From: Artemia franciscana
Lineage: Eukaryota; Arthropoda; Branchiopoda; Anostraca; Artemiidae
Assembly: GCF_032884065.1 (NCBI RefSeq)
Contig: NC_088872.1
Location: forward strand, 930,001 to 994,000
Length of the DNA stretch: 64,000 nucleotides
Reading direction: 5' to 3'
Shown here: piece after piece, positions 4,001 through 16,000 of the stretch
Layout of the letters: each line of letters opens with the position of its first letter
Numbering within the stretch: the first letter of the stretch is position 1
Made by a program: the position numbers and the translations under genes
Notes under the pieces: generated by a model
What the model saw: the letters and a program-made list of their open reading frames with translations, nothing else
The model's database searches: none
Told to the model about the DNA's origin: nothing

Positions 4001-7000
4001 GTGATCTCCTCGCCCTCTAAATAAACCAGGAGGCTCAATTTTGAAATTGCCAATTCGCTGTTTATGGCCGTCGATGGTGCAAAAACCAAACTCCTGTATC
4101 ACCTTCTCATTCTCTGCCTTTGTTTTCTAAAAAATGAGATAAGATGGATTTGAATTTCACATATATATATATATATATATATATATATATATATATATAT
4201 ATATATATATATATATATATATATATATATATATATATATATATACATTAGTTATATGTATTTACTAATATATGCATGAACGCATTCAATATATATGTAT
4301 AAACATACATATTTACAAACACATATAAACACTTTCAATATCTACAATGCAGAAAAAAACATAAAACGGCAACTGCTCTTAAAAAAAACTTATAGGAAAT
4401 TAACCTTATCATATAAAGCCTCTATTCAGAAATTACCTATTAAAAAGAAATTTCTGTCAATTCTCCCCTACCCCCCCCCCCCAAAAAAAATGGATGTGGT
4501 CCAGTACAGAAAATTATGAATCTCTTCCCAAAATATAACATTTAGTTAAATAGGGAGAGGAGGGTAAAAATCAGAAAAAGGAATACATTAGACTAGTATT
4601 TTCCAGAGGGCCCCTCCCCCTTGTTATTTTTACTGGCACTTTGATATCATTTTTACAAGCTTTACTTCCGATTTTTCTTCATATTATTTGGGAAAGAATT
4701 ATTGTTTCATTATGTCAGCTCTCAGAATTTACGCTTTCGCCGACAATATTTTTTTCATTTTTTCTAGGAATAAATCCAGACGAGCTCAAGGCATTAATTT
4801 AATAAAAAAAACAACAAATTTTTCAACAACAAGTAGGGAGGGACATTAAAACTTAAAATGAACAGAAATTAATCCGTATATGAAAGGGGCTTTTCCTCCT
4901 CAACGCCCCGCTCTTTAAGCTAAAGTTTTTTGCTGTTTTAAAAAGTACAGTTAAGAGAAAGAGCCACAATAACATATAAACATCAAACCAGTCTTCCAGT
5001 AGAATACAAAAACCTACTCCAACATTTCCTTAATACTTTCTCAGAAATTACTAAACTAGGACAAAAACGGGAATTAATTCCTAGAGATTGGAGTTCTAGT
5101 TTTGAACAAAAATAAATATTGTCAAAAATAAACAGGAAGGGGCTACAAATTTCACTTTCATCACAAACACATTCTCCACTTCGTGCCTTTCCAATTTCAT
5201 TTAAGAAATAATTTAATCGTCAATGTCCAGGTATATATAAGCTCAACCTTGATAATAAAAAAGGCCTACCTGTTTTTCTTCTTTTGTTCTATTTTTATTT
5301 TCTTCACTTCTTCTCTTGAAGTAGGCATTAATTTCTGAGAAATCACATTTTTTCAAATCGGTAATGAGCTCCCGTTCAGCGCTGGTCATAGTTTTCCTCC
5401 AATCTTTGAAAAAGTTTGTATTAAACTGTTCTTTGGCTGTGTAGTCGTGATCGAGCATCCGTCCATAGAATGTTGCCACTTCTTCCGTGTCTTGTGTTAG
5501 CTCTATGTGCTTACCTATTAACAAAACACAAGCTAGTGTCAAAAGCTGCTTTTCTCCTTAAGGTTAGTTTCCTCTGCAATCTTTAGTGTGTTATTTTTCT
5601 CCTCTCCTATAGTCTCAACGGAAGGCGATATTTTTTATATCATTCAGATCTAACTAAGATTTAGATCTATTCGTCTACCGAATTGCAGTTATACAAATTG
5701 GTTAGCATATTCTTAGATTGAAAATTCGTAAAAAAAAGGACTATTTTTCTATAGCAAGTTTAGTTCCTCCCTCAGGAAAAAGGAATAAATATTTTCCATA
5801 ACTAAGATTCAGAGCTATTCCTCTACCAAATTGCACTTATAGAATTTGGTGTGAATGTTTATAGATTAAAAATTCGCCAAAAGAAGGAAAATTTTTCTAT
5901 TTTTCTTTAGCAAGTTCAGTTCCTCCCTCAGGAAAAAGGAATAAATATTTTTCCATAACTAAGATTCAGAGCTATTCCTCTACCAAATTGCACTTATAGA
6001 ATTTGGTGTGAATGTTTATAGATTAAAAATTCGCCAAAAGAAGGAAAATTTTTCTATTTTTCTTTAGCAAGTTCAGTTCCTCCCTCAGGAAAAAGGAATA
6101 AATATTTTCCATAACTAAGATTCAGAGCTATTCCTCTACCAAATTGCACTTATAGAATTTGGTGTGAATGTTTATAGATTAAAAATTCGCCAAAAGAAGG
6201 AAAATTTTTCTATTTTTCTTTAGCAAGTTCAGTTCCTCCCTCAGGAAAAAGGAATAAATATTTTTCCATAACTAAGATTCAGAGCTATTCCTCTACCAAA
6301 TTGCACTTATAGAATTTGGTGTGAATGTTTATAGATTAAAAATTCGCCAAAAGAAGGAAAATTTTTCTATTTTTCTTTAGCAAGTTCAGTTCCTCCCTCA
6401 GGAAAAAGGAATAAATATTTTTCCATAACTAAGATTCAGAGCTATTCCTCTACCAAATTGCACTTATAGAATTTGGTGTGAATGTTTATAGATTAAAAAT
6501 TCGCCAAAAGAAGGAAAATTTTTCTATTTTTCTTTAGCAAGTTCAGTTCCTCCCTCAGGAAAAAGGAATAAATATTTTCCATAACTAAGATTCAGAGCTA
6601 TTCCTCTACCAAATTGCACTTATAGAATTTGGTGTGAATGTTTATAGATTAAAAATTCGCCAAAAGAAGGAAAATTTTTCTATTTTTCTTTAGCAAGTTC
6701 AGTTCCTCCCTCAGGAAAAAGGAATAAATATTTTTCCATAACTAAGATTCAGAGCTATTCCTCTACCAAATTGCACTTATAGAATTTGGTGTGAATGTTT
6801 ATAGATTAAAAATTCGCCAAAAGAAGGAAAATTTTTCTATTTTTCTTTAGCAAGTTCAGTTCCTCCCTCAGGAAAAAGGAATAAATATTTTTCCATAACT
6901 AAGATTCAGAGCTATTCCTCTACCAAATTGCACTTATAGAATTTGGTGTGAATGTTTATAGATTAAAAATTCGCCAAAAGAAGGAAAATTTTTCTATTTT

Positions 7001-13000: not shown

Positions 13001-16000
13001 AATAAATATTTTTCCATAACTAAGATTCAGAGCTATTCCTCTACCAAATTGCACTTATAGAATTTGGTGTGAATGTTTATAGATTAAAAATTCGCCAAAA
13101 GAAGGAAAATTTTTCTATTTTTCTTTAGCAAGTTCAGTTCCTCCCTCAGGAAAAAGGAATAAATATTTTTCCATAACTAAGATTCAGAGCTATTCCTCTA
13201 CCAAATTGCACTTATAGAATTTGGTGTGAATGTTTATAGATTAAAAATTCGCCAAAAGAAGGAAAATTTTTCTATTTTTCTTTAGCAAGTTCAGTTCCTC
13301 CCTCAGGAAAAAGGAATAAATATTTTTCCATAACTAAGATTCAGAGCTATTCCTCTACCAAATTGCACTTATAGAATTTGGTGTGAATGTTTATAGATTA
13401 AAAATTCGCCAAAAGAAGGAAAATTTTTCTATTTTTCTTTAGCAAGTTCAGTTCCTCCCTCAGGAAAAAGGAATAAATATTTTTCCATAACTAAGATTCA
13501 GAGCTATTCCTCTACCAAATTGCACTTATAGAATTTGGTGTGAATGTTTATAGATTAAAAATTCGCCAAAAGAAGGAAAATTTTTCTATTTTTCTTTAGC
13601 AAGTTCAGTTCCTCCCTCAGGAAAAAGGAATAAATATTTTTCCATAACTAAGATTCAGAGCTATTCCTCTACCAAATTGCACTTATAGAATTTGGTGTGA
13701 ATGTTTATAGATTAAAAATTCGCCAAAAGAAGGAAAATTTTTCTATTTTTCTTTAGCAAGTTCAGTTCCTCCCTCAGGAAAAAGGAATAAATATTTTTCC
13801 ATAACTAAGATTCAGAGCTATTCCTCTACCAAATTGCACTTATAGAATTTGGTGTGAATGTTTATAGATTAAAAATTCGCCAAAAGAAGGAAAATTTTTC
13901 TATTTTTCTTTAGCAAGTTCAGTTCCTCCCTCAGGAAAAAGGAATAAATATTTTTCCATAACTAAGATTCAGAGCTATTCCTCTACCAAATTGCACTTAT
14001 AGAATTTGGTGTGAATGTTTATAGATTAAAAATTCGCCAAAAGAAGGAAAATTTTTCTATTTTTCTTTAGCAAGTTCAGTTCCTCCCTCAGGAAAAAGGA
14101 ATAAATATTTTTTCATAACTAAGATTCAGAGCTATTCCTCTACCAAATTGCACTTATAGAATTTGGTGTGAATGTTTATAGATTAAAAATTCGCCAAAAG
14201 AAGGAAAATTTTTCTATTTTTCTTTAGCAAGTTCAGTTCCTCCCTCAGGAAAAAGGAATAAATATTTTTCCATAACTAAGATTCAGAGCTATTCCTCTAC
14301 CAAATTGCACTTATAGAATTTGGTGTGAATGTTTATAGATTAAAAATTCGCCAAAAGAAGGAAAATTTTTCTATTTTTCTTTAGCAAGTTCAGTTCCTCC
14401 CTCAGGAAAAAGGAATAAATATTTTTCCATAACTAAGATTCAGAGCTATTCCTCTACCAAATTGCACTTATAGAATTTGGTGTGAATGTTTATAGATTAA
14501 AAATTCGCCAAAAGAAGGAAAATTTTTCTATTTTTCTTTAGCAAGTTCAGTTCCTCCCTCAGGAAAAAGGAATAAATATTTTTCCATAACTAAGATTCAG
14601 AGCTATTCCTCTACCAAATTGCACTTATAGAATTTGGTGTGAATGTTTATAGATTAAAAATTCGCCAAAAGAAGGAAAATTTTTCTATTTTTCTTTAGCA
14701 AGTTCAGTTCCTCCCTCAGGAAAAAGGAATAAATATTTTTCCATAACTAAGATTCAGAGCTATTCCTCTACCAAATTGCACTTATAGAATTTGGTGTGAA
14801 TGTTTATAGATTAAAAATTCGCCAAAAGAAGGAAAATTTTTCTATTTTTCTTTAGCAAGTTCAGTTCCTCCCTCAGGAAAAAGGAATAAATATTTTTCCA
14901 TAACTAAGATTCAGAGCTATTCCTCTACCAAATTGCACTTATAGAATTTGGTGTGAATGTTTATAGATTAAAAATTCGCCAAAAGAAGGAAAATTTTTCT
15001 ATTTTTCTTTAGCAAGTTCAGTTCCTCCCTCAGGAAAAAGGAATAAATATTTTTCCATAACTAAGATTCAGAGCTATTCCTCTACCAAATTGCACTTATA
15101 GAATTTGGTGTGAATGTTTATAGATTAAAAATTCGCCAAAAGAAGGAAAATTTTTCTATTTTTCTTTAGCAAGTTCAGTTCCTCCCTCAGGAAAAAGGAA
15201 TAAATATTTTTCCATAACTAAGATTCAGAGCTATTCCTCTACCAAATTGCACTTATAGAATTTGGTGTGAATGTTTATAGATTAAAAATTCGCCAAAAGA
15301 AGGAAAATTTTTCTATTTTTCTTTAGCAAGTTCAGTTCCTCCCTAAAAAAAAGCGTAAATAATAGCATAATTCCGGTTCAGTGTATGGACAGATACGATA
15401 TTAAAGAATATAATGACACAAGCATCGTGTCCTTTTTTATGCAACTTTTAACTGCTGGCTGGTCGCAAAATTGCTAATTTTAGAAGGAATATATATGTTA
15501 CTATGGAAGATTGAAACTGTAAAATGTCAGTAGAGAAAGTCCGAAAGTCCTTTTTTTATCCTTGGATTTAGTCATATTTGTCAGTTTTATGCAAGGTTTC
15601 ATGGTGACAGGTTAGGTTTCTAACCCATTTCTGAGATTTTTAACCTAACCTAACATTTTTCTCTAAACCAAGCAGAGAAAAGGGAATTTCGGATATTCAC
15701 CGGTGAATGTCAACATTAACCAGATTTCGGACATTCAGTAACACATACCGTACAGATTAACTAACTAAAAACTTTCAGCTTGATTAGACTTAATTCTATC
15801 CCAATTATGGGAAGTCATACGCCAGAGATCTGAAACTATGCCGCGTTTGACATTTTGCTCCTTAGTTCTTAATTTTTCAACTTGGAATAACACACAGAAC
15901 GCGTTTTTTTAGGGGCAGTTTCAGATGTATTATATAATGCTCTTTAATACTGAATTAACCAATTATAAGTATTGAATCAGTTAATTAATTCATTCTTATG

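Follow-up and report, generated by a model that had tools for sequence, protein, structure and literature searches.

In the brine shrimp Artemia franciscana an intron of TOP1, the topoisomerase I gene, carries a 9.7-kb tandem array whose 157-bp units are almost identical. The window, by which we mean the whole stretch analysed here, comprises 64,000 nucleotides of contig NC_088872.1 (forward-strand positions 930,001 to 994,000), and coordinates are counted from its first base. The array is the expanded middle of one copy of a miniature inverted-repeat transposable element (MITE) and is still flanked by the two parts of that element; very probably a segment inside the MITE was duplicated long ago, and one of the two copies was then rapidly amplified, for the most part neutrally.

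The array was connected to its parent by an nhmmer profile built from 19 MITE copies with the window excluded. This profile matches on both sides of the array, on the left at 5561-5783 with model positions 4-262 (E 1e-30) and on the right at 15205-15499 with model positions 91-406 (E 5e-46), and both sides can therefore be read as one MITE copy at about 5558-15501, the array lying between the two parts of its own parent. The parent went unnoticed in the original prediction, which described the tandem units correctly and drew the limits of the homology too narrowly, as it passes 15344 and runs to about 15501, and the supposed left flank from 5558 onwards is the same element. Since the array is the middle of a MITE flanked by its two parts, nothing suggests a displaced heterochromatic satellite.

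Tandem Repeats Finder (TRF) delimits the array at 5651-15344, with a period of 157, 61.8 copies and 99% matches. Exact segmentation resolves it into 60 full head-to-tail units spanning 5799-15214 (56 of 157 bp and four of 156 bp), of which 49 match the 157-bp consensus perfectly; this interior contains eight substitutions in its 9,416 bp (0.085%), every one confined to a single unit. The 61 units, approximately eight substitutions, divergence below 0.1% and one diverged edge unit that had been counted by eye are thus confirmed. The word satellite holds in the sense of a satellite-like array of non-coding units extending over kilobases, not in the classical sense, as the assembly contains one 9.7-kb array and one diverged match. 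A search with the monomer gave its own locus, one weak diverged place on C1 and no other array; both first-look candidates were scored, and these counts are lower bounds that refer to assembled sequence. The longest open stretch of a unit is 30 codons in sense and 44 in antisense, which leaves a coding role unsupported, an Rfam scan of the unit gave nothing at the gathering threshold, a tRNA search of it gave none, and its RNA folding is ordinary (z -0.5); the unit as coding sequence or structured RNA was rejected on these grounds. The locus lies less than 1 Mb from the start of its contig (C10), and the setting of the array may be subtelomeric.

The relative on C1 is a single copy that aligns to the whole unit and onward into the right flank of the array. 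A search with this relative, in which 40 of 148 candidates were scored, gave at least 47 matches spread over 40 places, the match to itself counted; the list does not contain the TOP1 copy and is therefore incomplete. Stretches were taken for all 40 places (L009 and L018-L056; one extra stretch, L057, held no match), and 19 copies (L009 and L020-L037) were aligned with the window, the other 21 being left out. The alignment reveals a conserved block with fairly sharp ends, the majority sequence of the 19 copies being 408 bp long, starting with TTAAGGTTTATGTTCCCT and ending, inverted, with TTAAGGTATATGTTCCCT. Its terminal inverted repeats (TIRs) are 18 bp long, match at 17 of 18 positions and have TTAA outermost, followed by GG (consensus termini: TTAAGGTWTATGTTCCCT). 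The element is thus short, dispersed, bounded by inverted termini and, judged by its size and by the reading frames of the unit, non-coding, as a MITE should be. Genome-wide, the TIR pattern with at most two mismatches gave 707 + 649 matches compared with 123 + 136 for reversed controls, an excess of about 1,100. Identity averages 67% over the 171 pairs of copies and 80% against the consensus, which indicates that the family is old. The copies are not all independent, since four pairs of loci (L035/L039, L041/L042, L045/L047 and L054/L055) each share more than 2 kb at 97-99% identity. A second, partial copy is present in the window at 34649-34978 on the minus strand, where model positions 16-142 (weak, E 5e-4) and 219-407 (E 4e-18) are matched.

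From its termini the dispersed element is a MITE that probably targets TTAA and may be Kolobok- or piggyBac-like; piggyBac and Sola3 transposons also use TTAA. If TTAA is the target site, the GG that follows it in the consensus fits the purine-purine terminus of Kolobok (PMC6004289). Two observations on the 19 copies bear on TTAA as the target site. First, the ends are decayed, TTAA being present at the left end in nine copies, at the right end in 11 and at both ends in four; second, no flanking duplication beyond TTAA was visible by eye and no empty site was seen. With TTAA at both ends in so few copies and no empty site, we infer the TTAA target-site duplication, and TTAA could instead belong to the inverted repeat.

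The diverged edge unit preserves the earliest step. Compared with the consensus, edge and array units have 24 derived bases in common as well as the same 21- and 2-base deletions, and these common derived bases point to an old duplication in place; private changes amount to eight in the edge unit and seven in the array unit, and at four sites all three sequences differ. The same observations bear on the idea that a pre-existing satellite family was captured by the MITE and carried into TOP1, as has been proposed for miDNA4 in Xenopus (PMC12628747). We regard such a capture as most improbable in TOP1: in 19 copies the body of the element itself aligns with the unit, derived bases are common to edge and array units, and the monomer search returned a lower bound of one diverged relative and no second array. 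The consensus contains the word TATCAT exactly twice, at 91 and 271, near both ends of the repeated segment, and random breakpoints match in this way in 0.3% of cases when no slack is allowed and in 1.9% with a slack of 3 bases. This figure was computed after the word had been seen, the right word of the TOP1 copy is TAGCAT, and the single-copy spacing is 161 and not 157; because of these three points, a TATCAT microhomology as the seed of the duplication is suggestive only.

How the array became uniform can be judged from its few variants. A uniform interior with diverged edges is typical of homogenised arrays, and a satellite array of long standing, in which ongoing unequal exchange or gene conversion maintains uniformity and the edge unit has escaped, would account for the contrast between an edge unit of 82% identity and an interior at 0.085% divergence from its consensus, and for a 156-bp form restricted to one end of the array. 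On the other hand, all eight substitutions are singletons. In simulations of steady unequal exchange the mean singleton fraction was 0.13-0.36, and in none of 399 qualifying runs were all variants singletons. A growth model yields singletons only in 1-4% of runs when all mutations arise during growth, in 23-41% when half of them do and, by construction, in 100% when none do. Singleton-only variation therefore argues against steady homogenisation, and growth with most mutations arising afterwards fits better. Of the two causes originally offered, recent amplification or continuing homogenisation, the former is retained and the latter is no longer preferred; we consider long-standing homogenisation unlikely. 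Some results temper the preference for rapid growth. The steady-exchange result covers ten of 28 settings, namely those with at least eight qualifying runs, and singletons-only arrays also arise when mutations occur during growth, so growth need not have been instantaneous. The singletons could also be assembly errors, in which case the array would be younger still. The 156-bp length occurs in array units 2, 5, 9 and 12 and in the edge unit only, the four array units all falling within the first 12 of 60 (P 0.001), which probably makes it the older form, preserved at that end of the array. With an insect mutation rate of 2.8-5 x 10^-9 for each site and generation, eight singletons correspond to about 1.7-3 x 10^5 generations (0.7-6 x 10^5 within Poisson limits).

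Assemblers can collapse or over-expand near-identical repeats, and the array or its length might thus be an artefact of assembly. Several features make this very unlikely: false duplication would hardly give scattered singletons, a 156-bp form confined to one end and diverged sides, C10 is a chromosome-scale contig of 51.7 Mb, and exon 9 of TOP1 is matched once in the assembly (1.27 Gb, 6,468 contigs), with no haplotig conflict seen. That single match also led us to reject a haplotig with another array length. An array of 9.7 kb would fit inside single long reads.

The position of the array within a TOP1 intron, about 135 bp from exon 9, is borne out by Pfam, tblastn and splice borders. Three frames on the minus strand (5557-5243, 4126-3845 and 1058-738) gave hits to the Pfam families Topoisom_I_N and Topoisom_I (PF02919, E 1e-25 and 3e-37; PF01028, E 1e-17), and tblastn with a human TOP1 sequence places these domains in ordered exons and adds the exon that precedes exon 9, at 23399-23280, where 40 residues align at 75% identity. 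The numbering of exons 8 and 9 follows the original prediction, and splice borders were read from the sequence. More than half of the 17.8-kb intron is taken up by the array; 135 intronic bases separate exon 9 from the edge unit and 43 separate it from the MITE. From the order of the exons it follows that every primary TOP1 transcript would cross about 10 kb of array.

The effect of this passage on TOP1 is most likely nil, the array being a passenger that is spliced out. The sense strand of the array (9.7 kb) contains no AATAAA, ATTAAA or GTAAGT, compared with 11, 6 and 2, respectively, in the other 7.9 kb of the intron, and this absence may explain how 60 copies are tolerated. Among shuffled 157-bp units 55% contain a poly(A) word and 45% contain none, so that the absence is ordinary for one unit and weakens the explanation; selective avoidance of sense poly(A) words was not significant. 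The final 43 intronic bases, which include the pyrimidine tract, lie outside the MITE. The sole hint of an effect on splicing is the single pyrimidine-rich tract, followed by GAG, in each sense-strand unit. Around 61 such decoy acceptors might slow or divert splicing into exon 9, given that the sense unit holds TTATTCCTTTTTCCTGAG, with 14 pyrimidines of 15 in the sense orientation, and that the array begins 135 bp upstream of the exon 9 acceptor. GAG is a poor splice acceptor, the unit contains neither a sense CAG nor GTAAG, and its RNA folds in an ordinary manner; we give decoy acceptors very little credence. It is even less probable that the array acts as a length-variable dial, in which pyrimidine tracts and repetitive chromatin set the speed or completeness with which exons 8 and 9 are joined, and TOP1 output tracks array length among individuals. 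Recursive splice sites were also considered and rejected, the intron containing one AG/GTRAG (the slash marks the junction), with a poor pyrimidine tract, 676 bases in and outside the array.

Exon 9 itself starts with AG/GTAAGC (5503-5520, minus strand), and the joining of exons 8 and 9 thereby recreates a donor-like AATG/GTAAGC; read from sequence, this could permit re-splicing and skipping of exon 9. The exon 9 frame (5243-5557, minus strand) has a sub-threshold similarity to PF03496 (21.1 bits, cut-off 23.4), which we take as chance. Next to the exon, at 5002-5235, lies another dispersed repeat, of about 235 bp; with 40 of 147 candidates scored, at least 39 further places share 77-82% identity with it.

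Considering the element and the gene together, the following course of events is proposed. Homology shows that an old non-autonomous MITE of 408 bp, probably TTAA-targeting, entered the TOP1 intron at a distance of 43 bp from exon 9. Within it, a segment of 157 bp lying between the short direct repeats TATCAT would have been duplicated long ago; that this happened in place is supported by the common derived bases, and slippage or microhomology-mediated repair may have been the mechanism. Much later, one of the two copies would have been amplified quickly to about 61 units, a burst suggested by the singleton-only variation, possibly through unequal exchange or through rolling-circle copying and re-insertion. 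The array would be a largely neutral passenger that is transcribed as part of the intron and then removed by splicing, tolerated perhaps because its unit lacks AATAAA, ATTAAA and GTAAGT in sense and because the last 43 intronic bases remain outside the MITE.

Other copies of the family have also expanded internally. Tandem expansions of various segments are found in L018, L038, L043 and L050, together with a small duplication in L022, the duplicated segment of which overlaps the expanded segment of L050. By profile hits, six of 42 element spans (window included) carry an internal expansion; TRF also places six arrays on the 42 spans, with L037 counted and L022 not. Of eight loci picked by an intact terminus alone, one has an array (L058, 153 bp x 2.3-2.6) and at least four are fragments. 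As a control, TRF on 217 kb of flank gave 36 arrays with a period of at least 40. The genome at large is therefore rich in tandem duplications, and no special property of the MITE has to be invoked; the element may be an incidental substrate, a point against the course of events proposed above. A special proneness to tandem duplication was rejected, the excess being only about twofold (six against about 2.8 expected for 42 x 408 bp), and is not claimed, since the copy search favours repeats and the array of L037 only overlaps an element end. No array near 61 units was found among the fetched stretches, which at 3-10 kb can cut long arrays. L018 (on C17) carries, at 3209-5326, a separate array from the MITE family of 306 bp x 6.9 with 94% matches. 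Two arrays near MITE copies, L052:2547-4301 (126 bp x 13.9) and L054:2412-4201 (101 bp x 17.7), both reach the end of their stretch, and L074:1175-1802 (C5) is an array of 73 bp x 8.5 whose unit carries the MITE-type terminus AGAGGGAACATAAACCTTAAGG.

Table 1. Positions in the window of the MITE copy, its array and the surrounding TOP1 features.
Feature	Position	Strand	Basis or remark
MITE copy split by its own tandem expansion	5558..15501	+	nhmmer; matches begin at model position 4 and end at 406, limits extrapolated outwards to 1 and 408
MITE left part, terminus TTAAGG	5558..5650	+	alignment, nhmmer
TATCAT, left microhomology word, consensus position 91	5638..5643	+	
Diverged edge unit, 148 bp, 82% identity to array unit	5651..5798	+	last 37 bases are exactly the 156-bp form
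60 full units with 8 singleton substitutions (157 bp in 56 units, 156 bp in 4)	5799..15214	+	exact segmentation
61st unit, exact for first 130 bases, then diverging into MITE right part	15215..15344	+	
MITE right part, degenerate terminus TTAC for TTAA	15345..15501	+	alignment, nhmmer
TAGCAT, counterpart of right TATCAT, consensus position 271	15363..15368	+	
TOP1 exon 9 (Topoisom_I_N)	5270..5514	-	Pfam, tblastn, splice border
TOP1 intron, 17,770 bp, holding MITE and array	5515..23284	-	splice borders, tblastn
TOP1 preceding exon	23285..23399	-	tblastn; 5' limit is the edge of the match, not a border

Elsewhere in the window, two arrays with periods of about 292 bp and similar-looking consensus units lie at 21081-22509, inside the TOP1 intron, and at 36074-36813. 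T-rich low-complexity tracts based on TTTTTAG occupy 39745-41731 and 50936-53511, about 11 kb apart, with repeats of the TCCCTGTGTCCCGG type nearby.

Amplification inside a transposable element is already established. In Xenopus, the Xstir tandem repeats inside the Xmix MITE (T2-type, Kolobok) are known as MITE, array and composite forms (PMC12628747, PMC6004289); Xmix targets TTAA, as the TOP1 element probably does, and in both an internal segment of the MITE was amplified in tandem. Xstir, however, is a large family, whereas the TOP1 monomer was found at one locus, in a gene intron, and the T2 terminus is AGGRR as opposed to GGTTTATG after TTAA here. The satellite miDNA4 of a Xenopus Tc1/mariner MITE resembles the TOP1 array in lying within a MITE, and also in the short direct repeats that are proposed to cause its changes in copy number (PMC12628747); a captured repeat is proposed there in contrast to the element's own body here, and the superfamily probably differs. 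In Drosophila virilis, repeats internal to Tetris (TIR-220) have likewise expanded, the long and homogeneous arrays reaching 66 copies (PMC4079207), but Tetris is a foldback element whose repeats lie within its terminal inverted repeats and were amplified mainly in beta-heterochromatin. The TCAST-like elements of Tribolium castaneum are similar in being satellite-like repeats that lie in euchromatin, with introns harbouring 29 of the 68, and some of them sit in transposon-like units (PMC3411249); unlike the TOP1 array they have at most four monomers per euchromatic array and are related to a major pericentromeric satellite. Satellites and MITEs of molluscs are treated in PMC5139131. One narrow query with combined terms, the only search aimed at this locus, returned no paper on intronic satellite DNA in TOP1 or the topoisomerase I gene.

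Against this background the TOP1 array stands out by its uniformity, by where it lies and by the preservation of all its parts. Parent transposon, founding duplication, ancestral variant and amplified product are still present in order inside a housekeeping gene, and together they show a satellite being born. The MITE family, in turn, is a natural series in which different copies have amplified different segments by different amounts. Together they offer a clean case for gauging the part that microhomology may play in starting arrays, and the amount of array that an intron can bear close to a splice site.

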